A stretch of 29,386 bases of DNA from positions 1 to 29,386 of the IMG/VR virus record IMGVR_UViG_3300006749_000072, one strand, 5' to 3'. The notes below the pieces were generated by a model that did not search any database, was not told the DNA's origin, and worked only from the letters and a program-made list of their open reading frames with translations. The stretch is from a virus. The first letter of the stretch is position 1, and the number at the start of each line of letters is the position of its first letter. Position numbers and translations under genes: made by a program. Of the stretch, positions 10,028-15,952 are shown one piece after another.

Positions 10028-11353
10028 ATGATCGACAACTGGGATGATATACCAACAACAAAAATATTGCATGGCGATTGCATGCAACTCCTCAAGACAT
10101 TGCCTGATAACAGCATTGATGCAATTTGCACAGATCCACCGTACGGCATGTCAGCGGATGGCATCGCGCGCACATGGGCTGACATCGAAGAGGGCAAAAA
10201 CATTAAGGGCTTTATGGGTAAGGATTGGGATGCGGCTGTACCTTGTCACAACTTCTTTGCTGAGTGTTTACGTGTCTTGAAACACGGGGGGCACATGATA
10301 GCCTTTAGCTCAACGCGTACCGTTTGCGCGTTGGGTATGGCTGCACAAAAGGGCGGGTTTGTAATACGTGATATGATTCATTGGTGTTACTTCTCAGGAT
10401 TCCCAAAGTCGCACGATATAAGCAAAGCGATCGATCGTGAGGCGGGTGCGGTGCGTGAGGTTGTTGATCGTAAATCAACCCCTTACAAGGTTGATAATGC
10501 AGCAAAAAGAGGCGTGTCATTAGAGGGATCTATTAGAGGCGATTTTTCAAAAGAAATAGATGAAAAAGGATATAGAGTCAATGTGATCACAAAGCCCGCA
10601 ACACAAGAAGCCCAAAAATGGGAGGGGTTTGGCACGGCACTCAAGCCCGCAGTTGAACCCGCTTTGTTACTTCGTAAGCCGCTTGAAAAGGGTTTGACGA
10701 TTGCACAAAATGTCTTGAAACATGGTACGGGTGCGCTCAATATAGATGGGTGTCGTTTTGGTTATGGTGATCCGTGCTGGGTAGGATCTCAAGAGGATCA
10801 TACAAACCGATGGGATCGACCTGTAAAAAGCAACATGACCACAGGATCGGAATATGTGACGCACGGCATCAAGGGCACAAGCGAAGTTGCAGACCTTCAA
10901 GAGTACAAGCCAAAAGGCGGCCGATGGCCTGCAAACCTGTATCAATGCGCCAAAGCCTCACGATCTGAGCGTGAGGAGGGGCTTGATCATTTGGAAGCAC
11001 AAAAGGGCATTGCAAAACAAGTACATGGCGAAAATTCAAAGGGCTTGAATAGTCCAAGAGCGGGGGCCGGTCGTACCGCAAACGAGGTGCGCAACATACA
11101 CCCAACCGTTAAGCCGATCAAGCTCATGCGTTGGTGTTGTCGATTGATTGGCGGGCAAAAGGGATCGGTGATACTGGATCCTTTTACGGGTAGCGGTACA
11201 ACGGGCGCGGCTGCACTTCTTGAGGGCTTTGATTTTGTTGGTATGGAACTCACACCGGAATACTTGCCAATCATTGAGGGGCGCATTGATGCGGCCCGCA
11301 AACAGTACAAACTTGAAAATGCACAACTATCATTATTTGGGGATCAATCATGA
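10028..11353 (+). CDS. DNA methyltransferase, beta class (N6-adenine or N4-cytosine)
   Basis: The protein is 441 residues. The catalytic motif IV DPPYG is at 36-40. The S-adenosylmethionine motif I region LDPFTGSGTTG begins near residue 383, after a long central segment. Motif IV before motif I defines the beta class of amino-methyltransferases. The segment between them (W-C-Y-F-S-G-F-P-K-S..I-S-K-A-I-D) is common in phage orphan methylases. It transfers a methyl group to the exocyclic amine of A or C in a specific site. No restriction partner is nearby, so it probably protects phage DNA. The target site cannot be read from sequence. Confidence 0.92.
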   Translation: MIDNWDDIPTTKILHGDCMQLLKTLPDNSIDAICTDPPYGMSADGIARTWADIEEGKNIKGFMGKDWDAAVPCHNFFAECLRVLKHGGHMIAFSSTRTVCALGMAAQKGGFVIRDMIHWCYFSGFPKSHDISKAIDREAGAVREVVDRKSTPYKVDNAAKRGVSLEGSIRGDFSKEIDEKGYRVNVITKPATQEAQKWEGFGTALKPAVEPALLLRKPLEKGLTIAQNVLKHGTGALNIDGCRFGYGDPCWVGSQEDHTNRWDRPVKSNMTTGSEYVTHGIKGTSEVADLQEYKPKGGRWPANLYQCAKASRSEREEGLDHLEAQKGIAKQVHGENSKGLNSPRAGAGRTANEVRNIHPTVKPIKLMRWCCRLIGGQKGSVILDPFTGSGTTGAAALLEGFDFVGMELTPEYLPIIEGRIDAARKQYKLENAQLSLFGDQS

Positions 11354-11646
11354 GCAACGAACAAAAACTAGAAACAAGGATCTTGAGCCTTGTGCACAAA
11401 ATAGCTGAGGCCCGTAACAGGCTTTTACGGCTTCATATTCAAATGGTTGATTGTCAAACCACATTGAGCAGTATGATCGATGAATACCGCAAAGAATGCG
11501 GGGATCATGGTGTTGATATGCTCTTTGATGCGATCATTGATGATGCTGTACTTGAGCAACGTGACATTATGATCGCGTTTGAGTACAATGAAAAAATGTA
11601 TCGGGACTCACTCAAGCGATACTTTGATCGAAAGAATCAAAAATAA
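11350..11646 (+). CDS. Hypothetical helical protein
   Basis: The protein is 98 residues, almost entirely helical, with a likely coiled coil in the first 45 residues and another near the C terminus. The start ATG overlaps the methyltransferase stop (ATGA, 11350-11353), so the two are translationally coupled. It may assist the methyltransferase, but the family is unknown. No terminator is obvious before the next promoter at 11670. Confidence 0.68.
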   Translation: MSNEQKLETRILSLVHKIAEARNRLLRLHIQMVDCQTTLSSMIDEYRKECGDHGVDMLFDAIIDDAVLEQRDIMIAFEYNEKMYRDSLKRYFDRKNQK

Positions 11647-11669
11647 TCACTTTGATTGTTGCTTTTTAT

Positions 11670-11704
11670 TTGCCCTTTTCGTTTTATCAATATAATATAT
11701 TGAT
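11670..11704 (+). promoter_or_regulatory. Promoter with palindromic operator for the DpdA/QueC cassette (operator copy 3)
   Basis: TTGCCC (11670-11675), 17 bases, TAATAT (11693-11698). The 19-base perfect palindrome ATCAATATAATATATTGAT (11686-11704, one-base centre) covers the -10 box. It is 41 bases before ATG 11745 and is the longest perfect copy of the operator in the genome. Confidence 0.8.
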
Positions 11705-11744
11705 GTAGGGACAAACTACAACAACAAAACAAAGGACAATAACA

Positions 11745-12533
11745 ATGATCAACAAACTTCAATATGATTTGTTGCGTGAGGATTGGGGAGATTACATTAA
11801 TCAAAGATGTGTCATGTATTGCCCGCCTTTGCAATATCACCCCAACACAGAATCCATTTACATAAAATATACATATTTTGCAGCAACAAGCTTACGTTTT
11901 TTATGTAGTCCGCAAACAGTAAGAAATAATCAAAAATGTATTGATGGATTAAATATGCGAGGATACGCATTGGATAACGGGGCATATCTTTGCCACACAA
12001 AAAAACAACCATTTGATCATGATGCTTTTGAGCGATACCTTGATCAATATGCCGCTTTTGCTGATTGGGTTGTTTTGCCTGATGTGGTATGCGACAAAGA
12101 TCAAACGCTTGCACTTGCTGATCGATATATCGACAAGATACAAGCAAAACATCAAGGGATCAAAATGCTGATTGTGTGGCAAGATGGCATGAACAAAGTC
12201 GATCTTTTGCGTTTTGTGTGCAATGGTGTTGGCGTGTTTGTTGGTGGTAGTACTGAGGGCAAATTGCAAAATATGAAATGGATCGCCGATATGTGCAAAG
12301 AGTTTGACGTGTGGTGTCATGTGGGGCGCGTTAATACATTGCAACGATTAAATTATGTTTTGAAGTGTGGCGCAAACTCATTTGATGGATCTGGTATTGT
12401 TCGATTTTTGCCTACATTGCGTTTGTTGGCTTGTCGATTGATTCAAGAGCGGGATCAACTATCTTTGTTTCAAAAAGATACAATGACAAATGAGTTTTTA
12501 AATACATGGTTACAAAAAAAGAGGGCTTTATGA
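11745..12533 (+). CDS. dpdA: DpdA-like DNA 7-deazaguanine transglycosylase
   Basis: The protein is 262 residues. It has the features of phage DpdA proteins, DNA-acting relatives of tRNA-guanine transglycosylase: LDNGAY with D77 (the counterpart of the DSGGF general base in Tgt), WVVLPDVV at 108-115, WCHVGRVNT at 190-198, and SFDGSGIVRF with D214 (counterpart of the nucleophilic Asp). These enzymes exchange guanine in DNA for a 7-deazaguanine such as preQ0. It lacks the Tgt zinc site, as expected for many phage forms. The next gene (QueC, ATGA overlap) makes preQ0. The start at 11745 follows AAAGGACAATAACA. Confidence 0.85.
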   Translation: MINKLQYDLLREDWGDYINQRCVMYCPPLQYHPNTESIYIKYTYFAATSLRFLCSPQTVRNNQKCIDGLNMRGYALDNGAYLCHTKKQPFDHDAFERYLDQYAAFADWVVLPDVVCDKDQTLALADRYIDKIQAKHQGIKMLIVWQDGMNKVDLLRFVCNGVGVFVGGSTEGKLQNMKWIADMCKEFDVWCHVGRVNTLQRLNYVLKCGANSFDGSGIVRFLPTLRLLACRLIQERDQLSLFQKDTMTNEFLNTWLQKKRAL

Positions 12534-13105
12534 TTCTTTTATTTTCAGGCGGTTATGACAGCACGCTTTTAGCTTTGCAATACCTTGAGGATCTTGATGT
12601 ACTTTTACACATACAGTATATTCACCCATCAAAAGATCAAGAGTATAAAGCCACACAAAAAATATATAGGCATCTTAAAAAATTAAAACCATCATTACAA
12701 TTGCATGTAATGTTTTTAACCTCAATTAATGCCGATAATATGAAAATTGGCACAGGCAAAATAGGGGCAAGATATGTGCCTAACCGCAATGCAATATTTT
12801 TGTCGATGGCCTCAAACTTTGCAGGTGTGCACGGCATCAAAAAAATTATTTATGGGGCCGCACCCGCTGATCAAAATGATTACTTTGATTGTACGCCCGC
12901 ATTTATTGAAAGCATATCATGTGCTTTGCAAATCACAATACAAGCACCTCTATTGCAAAAAAGTTGGGATAGATTGCCCGCATGCATACCAAAAGCAAAC
13001 GCTAAAAGGATCTTGTGTATGGTATGGTCTTGTTACGAATCAAAAGGCGGTGATCCTTGTGGGGTGTGCAATTCATGCATGCAAGATCGCCCCGTGCTAT
13101 ATTAG
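12530..13105 (+). CDS. queC: QueC, 7-cyano-7-deazaguanine (preQ0) synthase
   Basis: The protein is 191 residues. The ATP-pyrophosphatase loop is at 6-12 (SGGYDST). PNRNAIFLSMA at 84-94 and a D-Y-F-D-C segment around 117-121 match QueC. C168, C177, C180 and C183 (C-x8-C-x2-C-x2-C) form the QueC zinc site. It converts 7-carboxy-7-deazaguanine to preQ0 with ATP and ammonia. QueD, QueE and GTP cyclohydrolase are absent here, so the host must supply carboxy-deazaguanine. The start at 12530 overlaps the dpdA stop (ATGA) with GAGGG upstream. It is somewhat shorter than typical bacterial QueC but has all motifs. Confidence 0.9.
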   Translation: MILLFSGGYDSTLLALQYLEDLDVLLHIQYIHPSKDQEYKATQKIYRHLKKLKPSLQLHVMFLTSINADNMKIGTGKIGARYVPNRNAIFLSMASNFAGVHGIKKIIYGAAPADQNDYFDCTPAFIESISCALQITIQAPLLQKSWDRLPACIPKANAKRILCMVWSCYESKGGDPCGVCNSCMQDRPVLY

Positions 13106-13123
13106 CAAATATGAGGTGATACC

Positions 13124-15952
13124 ATGAGCAAAGATTTACCATCAAAGCCCGTTTCTTTTTGGGCACGCTTGATCGAACCAATAACAAAGGCGTTTGCCAA
13201 ACCCGTTGATAAGCCTGAGCGGCCCGCACACGGTGCAGATTGGGATAGAGCACAGGGCGCGCGTAACCCATACCCCGCAGGCGTTTCGATGGCTGCATTT
13301 TCTCAACACGGTTATGTGTTTGCGGCTGTTTCAAGAGCTTCTCAAGATTTGGCGGCATTGCCGATCAAGCTCATACGCGGGCGCGGTGAAAATAGAGAGG
13401 TACTCACAGATCATCCATTTTTGGATTTGATGGATCAACCAAGTACATACGTTGACGGCTTCTCATTTCGTGAGCAATTGATCGTTGACTTGATGCTTAC
13501 AGGCGGGTGTTATGTATTGCTTGCGGGGCCTCAAGATGTGCCGGCCTCATTGTTTCGATTACATCCTGAGCAAACGCGAATCATTACGGATCCGGTGATG
13601 GGGATCAAGGGTTTTGAGTTTGAGGACAGCGGCAACATTGTAGCCTATCCGATCGATCGTGTTGTATACGCACAAAGTGCATCATGGGGCGCGGGCGTAA
13701 ATGCTTTGTATGGTGTAGGGGGGATCCAACCTTTACAGCGCGAAATAGGGGCCGATATAAGCGCGCAAAAGTTGGCAAGTGATGCAGCCAAAAAAGGACG
13801 GCCGGACATTTTGATCAGTCCCGCTGATGAGGCTGATATTTGGGATTACGAACAAAGGCGATCCATACTTGACGCATACAGGGGAATGAGTCAAGAGGGG
13901 GGCGCAATGGTGATGAGCGGGCAAGTAAAGATCGAACCATTGCAGATCAGCCCGCGCGATCTTGAGTTTCAAGCGGTGCGAGAATACACAAGACAGGCAA
14001 TTTCAGCCGTTTTTGGCACACCTCCGAGTATATTAGGCGATAATTCGGCTAATTTTGCAGTTTCTCGCCAACAGGCACAGAACTACTGGGAAGTTCAAAC
14101 AAAGCGGGGCAAGCGTTTGAGTTTCTTGCTCACACAGATCGCAAAGCGGTTTGATACCTCCTTTCGTGTTGAGATTGATTATTCAGGCGTTGAGGCTTTG
14201 CAAACGATACGTGATTCACAGCTTGATCGCGTAACAAAGAACATTCTTAACGGTATGGATCCCGCTGATGCGTATATGTATGAGGGCCTTGAGGATGCGC
14301 CAATAATACCACAGGATGAGCGAGAAACACCCGCTCAAGATATAGGCGATGAAGAGGGGCAAAACGTGCGCGCGCTTGAGTTGATCTTGCGTGCAATCAA
14401 TAAAGACCAAAAGCAAGAAACAAATTACGGTCTCAAGAGCAATGCAAAAGAGGCAATGGATGCGCTCAATGAATCTGCGCAAAAGGGATTAAAAAAAAAA
14501 GCCGCTGATCATAATGAGGAATATGGCGATAACCCAAAGAAAAAGCTAACCAATAGCAATTATTTAGCGGTGTCATATTGGCGCGGTTTGGCCGCATTTG
14601 AAACAAACCCCTCAAGCGTGCGCCCATCGGTATCAAGCGCGGCACAATGGGCAATGGGGCGCGTAAATGGCTTGTTGTATGCGTTACGTACGGGCAAGTA
14701 CAAGCGCAAACCATATGATACCGATTTACTACCAAAGGATCACCCGTTATCTAATGCTGAGGATGATGAAACCAAAAAGCAAGAAATTACCAACTTCCCT
14801 ACACAGGGCGACGATCGCACGGTATCACTTGAAAATACGCAATACAGGGTTTTTGATGCAGACTATGCACAAGACTTGAAAGATAATTGGCCTCAGATTT
14901 GGGACAAAGGCGGCAACATTGAAGGTAACAACCAATACAGGCGGCTCAAGCCTATTGTTGATCGCGCTGATAAAGAGCCGCAAACTGAAACCGAAGAAAT
15001 GGCAATACGCAAGCGTGAGGCATGGGCCGCACGTCACTTGCAAGATTTTCGCCTTGCCGGTACTGTTGCGCAAATCAAATGGTTTGTTGTTGGTGATCGT
15101 GGTCAAACGTACATGAAAGAGTTGATTGAGGATGAAAAGCAAAAGATCAACGCCCGCAAAGAGCGATCGGATATGTGGGAAGGTTGGATCACACGCGCAC
15201 AGCAACCGGCTGAAAAGAGCATTGAGCGTGCTGTATATACGTATCTAAGGCAAGCGTCAAAGCGGTATCAAGATCGCGTTAAGGATTATGTTGTAAGCCG
15301 TAAACATGCCGGATCCGCAAAGGTTACAAGAGCGGTGATTGATTGGGCCTCTTTGCTTTCGATGGCTGATGAAATGCAAATACTACAAAAGCAATTAGGC
15401 CGTCAATGGTTGAGCGTGTGGAGTTTGAGCGGCAACGATGCGCTTGATGATGTCTTTGCACGGGCGGGCAAAACAAAGCCTCTTGATCTGATCTTTGGAA
15501 GTCGTGAGGCGGCTGTCAATGCCAATGATCTTGCATCAATGCAAATAACTCAAGCCACAGCAAACAAGATCAAGCGTATTGTTGAAGTTGGATTATTGAA
15601 TGGTGATTCAGTCGATGAAATGTCAAGTGAATTAGAGCGTAATACTATATTTTCAGCAAAGCGGGCGCGCATCATTGCCCGCACCGAATCAACAAAGGCC
15701 GTGAATATGGCAACGGATCAAGCATACAGTACAGCTGCAAACAACGGGATCAACATCCGCAAAGAGTGGCTATCATCGCGTGATGATAAGGTGCGTGATA
15801 CACATGTTGAGCTTGATGGGCAAACGGTCGATGTAAATAATAAATTTGTTGTACCTTCGACGGGTGACAGCACAGAAAGCCCCGCAGCCTTTGGGATTGC
15901 AAGTGAGGATATAAATTGTAGGTGTACATTAATCCCCGTGATTGAGGATTAA
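13124..15952 (+). CDS. Portal protein fused to MuF-type head morphogenesis protein
   Basis: The protein is 942 residues, about twice a normal portal. Residues ~1-400 are the portal (FAAVSRASQDLAALP at 66-80, GTPPSILGD at 298-306, then the A-V-S-R-Q-Q-A helix). Residues ~460-550 form a domain with HNEEYGD, NTNPSSVRPSV-like and DTDLLPKDHPLS segments. Residues ~570-680 carry another conserved block (YAQDLKDNWPQIWDKGGN; KWFVVGDRG). Residues ~690-936 are a MuF/SPP1 gp7-like domain (RARIIARTEST; SSRDDKVRDTHVELDGQ; INCRC). The portal is the DNA gate of the capsid, and MuF proteins sit inside the head. The start at 13124 has GAGGTGATACC upstream. Confidence 0.9.
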   Translation: MSKDLPSKPVSFWARLIEPITKAFAKPVDKPERPAHGADWDRAQGARNPYPAGVSMAAFSQHGYVFAAVSRASQDLAALPIKLIRGRGENREVLTDHPFLDLMDQPSTYVDGFSFREQLIVDLMLTGGCYVLLAGPQDVPASLFRLHPEQTRIITDPVMGIKGFEFEDSGNIVAYPIDRVVYAQSASWGAGVNALYGVGGIQPLQREIGADISAQKLASDAAKKGRPDILISPADEADIWDYEQRRSILDAYRGMSQEGGAMVMSGQVKIEPLQISPRDLEFQAVREYTRQAISAVFGTPPSILGDNSANFAVSRQQAQNYWEVQTKRGKRLSFLLTQIAKRFDTSFRVEIDYSGVEALQTIRDSQLDRVTKNILNGMDPADAYMYEGLEDAPIIPQDERETPAQDIGDEEGQNVRALELILRAINKDQKQETNYGLKSNAKEAMDALNESAQKGLKKKAADHNEEYGDNPKKKLTNSNYLAVSYWRGLAAFETNPSSVRPSVSSAAQWAMGRVNGLLYALRTGKYKRKPYDTDLLPKDHPLSNAEDDETKKQEITNFPTQGDDRTVSLENTQYRVFDADYAQDLKDNWPQIWDKGGNIEGNNQYRRLKPIVDRADKEPQTETEEMAIRKREAWAARHLQDFRLAGTVAQIKWFVVGDRGQTYMKELIEDEKQKINARKERSDMWEGWITRAQQPAEKSIERAVYTYLRQASKRYQDRVKDYVVSRKHAGSAKVTRAVIDWASLLSMADEMQILQKQLGRQWLSVWSLSGNDALDDVFARAGKTKPLDLIFGSREAAVNANDLASMQITQATANKIKRIVEVGLLNGDSVDEMSSELERNTIFSAKRARIIARTESTKAVNMATDQAYSTAANNGINIRKEWLSSRDDKVRDTHVELDGQTVDVNNKFVVPSTGDSTESPAAFGIASEDINCRCTLIPVIED

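Follow-up and report, generated by a model that had tools for sequence, protein, structure and literature searches.

The window analyzed here is the entire IMG/VR record IMGVR_UViG_3300006749_000072 (29,386 bp), which is classed as linear and has no end repeats. It stems from a phage group that is probably marine, judging from the IMG sample numbers. At the locus under study a gene for a compact protein of the DpdA/TGT superfamily (262 aa, positions 11745 to 12533, plus strand) is followed by a gene for a QueC-family protein (191 aa, 12530 to 13105, plus strand). The immediate neighbors of this pair are orf98 (11350 to 11646, plus strand), which has no Pfam match, and a gene for a portal/Mu F-like head fusion protein (13124 to 15952, plus strand; PF04860, 1.3e-38, and PF04233, 6.6e-18). 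An N6/N4 DNA methyltransferase gene (10028 to 11353, plus strand; PF01555, 3.4e-27) is adjacent to the cassette but located outside of it, and is conserved in most of the genus, including most relatives that lack the cassette.

Related contigs were recovered via terminase and capsid searches, and the longest close relatives pile up at 30.0 to 30.7 kb. Because of this clustering a genome of about 30 kb is likely, which supports the small size proposed in the earlier, sequence-only reading of this DNA. The same relatives make it unlikely that the small size is an artefact of a fragment, although the record may still be one. The additional statement that deazaguanine phages usually have larger genomes is no rule for carriers of DpdA, as DpdA homologues are also found in phages of Vibrio and Salmonella with genomes of 31.7 and 29.7 kb, respectively.

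The pair occupies a cargo slot on the plus strand between orf98 and the portal gene (approximately 11640 to 13092), whose flanks are kept and whose content is swapped in relatives. Phages with 91 to 98% identical terminases retain the methyltransferase, orf98 and the portal gene, but the dpdA-like gene and queC are missing. In the loci L157, L158 and L160 the slot is filled by an ORF of 134 to 137 aa, L181 has a gene resembling those of DNA methyltransferases there (phrog_757, 1.2e-51), and in L167 and L187 the slot is empty. The final codons of queC fall within the conserved right flank, CGTGCTATATT. The pair is also found, with 62% and 53% identity, on a 33-kb contig whose remaining similarity to the window is limited to two weakly matching ORFs of the tail region. 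Since the content of the slot varies in close relatives and an otherwise unlike contig carries the pair, the dpdA-like/queC pair is a transferable unit in an exchange slot.

Upstream of the pair a perfect palindrome of 19 bp, ATCAATATAATATATTGAT, at positions 11686 to 11704 covers the sequence TATAAT (11691 to 11696) and may serve as operator and promoter of the slot. It had been described as the pair's own promoter with the longest operator of the genome. The palindrome itself was found, but neither attribute held. The block with the promoter/operator also precedes the unrelated cargo in L157 and L158, so that the argument concerns the slot and not the pair, and a promoter belonging to the pair was rejected on this comparison. 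Arms of equal length are present at 584 to 602 (ACCAATATAATATATTGGT, 19 bp) and at 1060 to 1078. Because these sites tie with it and shuffled sequence sometimes yields palindrome arms of 9 to 10 bp, the length alone is no evidence. The recurrence of CAATATARTATATTG is above chance, with 16 matches compared with 2.1 expected when up to 3 mismatches are allowed. Copies at 586, 4001, 5641, 9530, 11688, 16763 and 17564 include several located upstream of genes, and the recurrent element is probably the operator of a phage-wide regulon. A consensus scan for sigma-70 promoters listed none at the palindrome, where a -35 element TTGCCC with a spacer of 15 bp falls outside the limits of the scan.

The 262-aa protein has no match in Pfam or NCBIfam, and a sequence search of the PDB returned chance matches only. 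It is covered by PHROG 15826 (phrog_15826, 5.8e-26), a family listed with function unknown. The motifs HVGRVNT and FDGSGIVRF and the residues D77 and D214, to which the sequence-only reading had pointed, were confirmed. A search opened with a four-member alignment uncovered relatives of this compact enzyme in at least 546 stretches of IMG/VR. The best 80 of these 546 loci were fetched, and 75 distinct members were used to analyze conservation. N78, P112, D113, Q146, G148, G167, G168 and K173 are invariant in all 75, and H192, R195, N197, S212, D214 and G215 in all 74 members that reach these positions; D77 is kept in 73 of 75 and replaced by E in the other two. Among annotated phages, tblastn identified only Erythrobacter R6L (gp10) and ZS04 and Arthrobacter Sonali (gp81) and Aoka (gp40), which belong to the same compact clade at 31 to 35% identity. 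Sonali gp81 and Aoka gp40 are already annotated as DpdA-like or as queuine tRNA-ribosyltransferase. The records of R6L and Aoka contain no QueC, QueD, QueE or FolE, and no DNA-modification test of the compact enzymes of Aoka, Sonali, R6L or ZS04 was found in the literature. In the sources consulted, the compact DpdA-like clade, paired with fragments of the preQ0 pathway, is not named as such.

Four lines of evidence place the 262-aa protein in the TGT/DpdA superfamily, as had been claimed, and link it to phage DpdA through reciprocal profile searches and a predicted TIM-barrel fold. A BLAST comparison with Sonali gp87 revealed no similarity, so that profiles were needed. Of 37 members of the compact clade, 14 are detected by the profile phrog_887 (queuine tRNA-ribosyltransferase), the best with 1.7e-6. 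An hhalign comparison of the compact-clade profile with one built from nine phage DpdA proteins gave an E-value of 1.3e-6 and a probability of 90.5; D77 is paired with the Asp of the DpdA motif DSGAF and Q146 with a DpdA His, and D214, which is outside the aligned span, corresponds to DpdA by motif order. When whole phage records were searched with the compact-clade profile, its only matches other than clade members were DpdA genes, namely those of Sonali, Sour, RHph_X3_2 and Vibrio D272. In the opposite direction, a search of 50 clade-carrying records with the DpdA profile gave matches at compact genes and otherwise only at the standard DpdA of Sonali, and it finds the genes identical to that of the window in two other records with 27.3 bits. 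No standard DpdA was found beside the compact gene in 49 of these 50 records, Sonali being the exception. The structure predicted with AF2 (pLDDT 84) is a TIM barrel, whose viral fold neighbors include many phage queuine tRNA-ribosyltransferases or DpdA proteins, several of them among the best matches; the top 50 of a PDB fold search contain generic TIM barrels only.

Compared with phage DpdA of the 9g/Seurat/Sonali gp87 type, which is homologous by profile and is likewise found with preQ0 genes, the compact clade has the DxGA motif, a second Asp, the GG pair, a conserved His and a distal Asp in identical order. It differs by a core of about 200 instead of about 300 aa, by Q146DG at the position of the DpdA His, by the signatures HxGRVN and SxDG, and by partners that usually comprise one or two pathway genes instead of four. 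The enzymes of Vibrio phage nt-1 (DpdA2), Campylobacter phage CP220 and Halovirus HVTV-1, the latter two of which we take to be DpdA3 and DpdA4, belong to the same superfamily, and the nt-1 protein R9TGF0 is among the fold matches of the compact protein (1.5e-3). The compact-clade profile found no match at E<=10 in the records of nt-1, CP220 and HVTV-1, which argues that the clade is not simply one of those enzymes. As the 9g record was missed as well, the reach of this profile is limited and a distant homology to them may still exist. PHROG 15826 gains a likely function as a base-exchanging DpdA-like enzyme.

The superfamily also includes the tRNA TGT, and it has been proposed that phages with pathway genes but without DpdA raise the level of queuosine in tRNA (PMC6884629). 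The pair could alter the wobble position G34 of host tRNAs or boost queuosine during infection. The zinc motif CxCxxC of bacterial TGT is absent from all 37 compact-clade members analyzed, which makes classical tRNA binding unlikely. Together with the small core and with a Pfam TGT model that matches only 1 of 37 members, at 0.018, and so places the clade nearer to the phage DpdA/TGT family, this renders a role in tRNA modification highly improbable.

The start codon of queC at 12530 overlaps the stop codon of the dpdA-like gene by 4 bp (ATGA), which bears out the translational coupling proposed from the sequence, and such a start/stop overlap is present in 10 of 11 loci examined. Assignment to the QueC family with PP-loop and four-Cys zinc site was likewise borne out by PF06508 (1.5e-28) and by the presence of SGGxDS and C(x)8CxxCxxC. 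With canonical QueC from B. subtilis (3BL5) and E. coli the protein shares the fold, the PP-loop, the zinc site and the elements VPxRN, YxDC and CY. The canonical sequence YxQxHxxE of these cluster 1 enzymes (PMC13329287) is replaced by YxH(x)5E (YIHPSKDQE), and the score of 85.9 bits against the NCBI equivalog TIGR00364 is below the cut-off of 150.3, whereas QueC proteins of full-pathway phages reach 160 to 185 bits. Stop codons that seemed to interrupt two QueC matches were set aside, as the QueC ORFs themselves are intact. Residues Y30, R86, Y118 and Y169 are the equivalents of Y35, R99, Y131 and Y189 in E. coli QueC, where each exchange to Ala abolished queuosine formation (PMC13329287). 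Because these essential residues, the PP-loop and the four Cys are kept despite the divergence, it is likely, from the residues conserved, that the protein uses 7-carboxy-7-deazaguanine (CDG), and preQ0 would be its probable end product. The reaction of QueC passes through 7-amido-7-deazaguanine (ADG; PMC13329287), and dADG is known from phage DNA (PMC6884629). An enzyme with an altered YxQxHxxE motif might halt at the amide and supply ADG or another 7-deazaguanine to the DNA, and relatives with QueD or QueE only, whose partner gene sets vary, may differ in their product. As all four residues needed for the formation of preQ0 are kept, we regard a base other than preQ0 as unlikely.

The most serious rival to a function in DNA modification is the deazaguanylation of a protein. 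A QueC-like/TGT-like pair with such chemistry exists in type IV CBASS (PMC11996544), where the QueC-like protein Cap9 is similarly small. By analogy with Cap9/Cap10, the QueC-like protein would conjugate ADG to a protein N-terminus, the TGT-like protein would bind or edit the product, and in a phage the reaction could serve counter-defense. The sequence YxH(x)5E has the spacing of Y/FxQ(x)5E in Cap9, and the 191 aa of the window protein are near the about 185 aa of Cap9 (PMC13329287). In a fold search with the window protein, 3BL5 was found with 1.6e-8 and Cap9 (9NTO) was listed directly after QueC. Against this, a profile built from the window protein and 15 partner QueC proteins (16 in total) matched solved QueC proteins at 129 and 126 bits, Cap9 at 81 and QatC at 31, and the single sequence fails to detect Cap9. 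The window protein contains CY(x)7CxxCxxC as in QueC; the Cap9 motifs CE(x)6CxxCxxCxD and H(x)4YxDC are absent, and no His is found at the corresponding position. The catalytic-type Asp residues are kept across the compact clade, Cap10 was neither recognized by sequence nor present among the 50 best fold matches, and many relatives have QueD or QueE as a partner and lack QueC altogether. The window pair also differs from Cap9/Cap10 in being phage cargo. Considering both sides, protein deazaguanylation is quite improbable here.

To characterize the genetic context of the clade we inspected the neighbors in the fetched loci, whose counts favor close relatives because the best 80 of 546 loci were used. 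QueC is a neighbor in 18 loci and follows the compact gene immediately in 11 of them; for QueD the corresponding numbers are 12 and 9, and a radical SAM protein resembling QueE is a neighbor in 5. Of 50 records examined over their entire length, 17 contain QueC, 13 QueD, 7 QueE and 2 FolE, and in five records of 33 to 78 kb (G005, G014, G018, G020 and G035) QueC is the only one of these four pathway genes. The pathway genes that accompany the clade are QueC, QueD or QueE, and almost never the full set. Within the window, local profiles for QueD and QueE found none, in agreement with the earlier claim that only a fragment of the pathway is kept, and 90 loci from window-related phages without the compact gene contain no QueC, QueD or QueE. 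The sequence-only reading had missed that the compact clade is large and that it includes members with QueD or QueE as the sole partner; stretches read as such are L022:2680-3650, L033:6634-7074 and L065:835-2077, and they raise the question of which pathway step each host limits. In 17 paired loci the similarities of the DpdA-like and QueC proteins correlate with r=0.75 (Mantel p=0.0005), and without a close group with 0.62, so that the two proteins diverge in step.

From these comparisons we consider it likely that the pair would replace guanine in DNA by a preQ0-like base derived from host CDG and would act as anti-restriction cargo. The host makes CDG for queuosine, and we assume that it is supplied to the phage, which is plausible because, of 30 bacterial genomes in which the compact clade occurs, 23 themselves encode a full-strength QueC. 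Phage QueC would convert CDG to preQ0, possibly halting at ADG, and the compact enzyme, translated from the same message, would exchange guanine in replicated phage DNA for the deazaguanine base by the double displacement known from TGT. By analogy D214 would be the nucleophile and D77 the acid/base, and the inserted base would mask restriction sites. This reading rests on the TGT/DpdA homology, the kept residues D77, Q146, H192 and D214, the neighboring pathway genes, the gene overlap and the co-divergence; the retained essential residues of QueC, the missing TGT zinc motif and the methyltransferase-like gene in the same slot of L181 are additional arguments. There is also a precedent, as dpdA of phage 9g was by itself sufficient in E. 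coli for preQ0 made by the host to be inserted into plasmid DNA, and the authors suggested that the product of Gat-QueC is channeled to DpdA (PMC6884629). Gat-QueC of 9g did not restore tRNA queuosine in an E. coli delta-queC strain (PMC6884629). Against DNA exchange stand the QueC score below the equivalog cut-off, the replaced YxQxHxxE motif and the generic TIM barrels that make up the top 50 PDB folds. As the genes are two and small, a direct test by co-expression is possible, with a mass-spectrometry readout that separates modification of DNA from that of protein. Many phages may carry one insertion enzyme with only one or two pathway steps and apparently rely on the host, and such phages would escape a search that requires the complete folE-queD-queE-queC cluster.

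Arthrobacter phage Sonali contains two TGT/DpdA homologues (L005:8875-9492 and L005:11862-12752), one compact and one standard. Since it has a standard DpdA and the full preQ0 pathway in addition to the compact enzyme, the latter may do something else. PHROG 15826 could be a separate transglycosylase branch that phages use together with single complementing steps of the deazaguanine pathway, and the divergent QueC could make another DNA base or deazaguanylate protein as a phage counterpart of Cap9/Cap10; we give this combination a small chance.

In Burkholderiaceae (L102 to L152) a DndC-like/PAPS-reductase gene (PADLOC DndC, 1e-44) follows the compact TGT-like gene in about 24 of 51 loci, and an SbcC-like ATPase gene often precedes it (examples are L123:6082-7847 and L112:2670-4913). 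This TGT-like/DndC-like/SbcC-like set may be a separate modification or defense unit. In phages, too, PAPS-reductase-like genes are repeatedly found close to the compact TGT gene (L006:7352-8392, L009:3-563 and L004:5553-6587). In L009 this gene is located upstream of the pair, at the position that the DNA methyltransferase gene has in the window.
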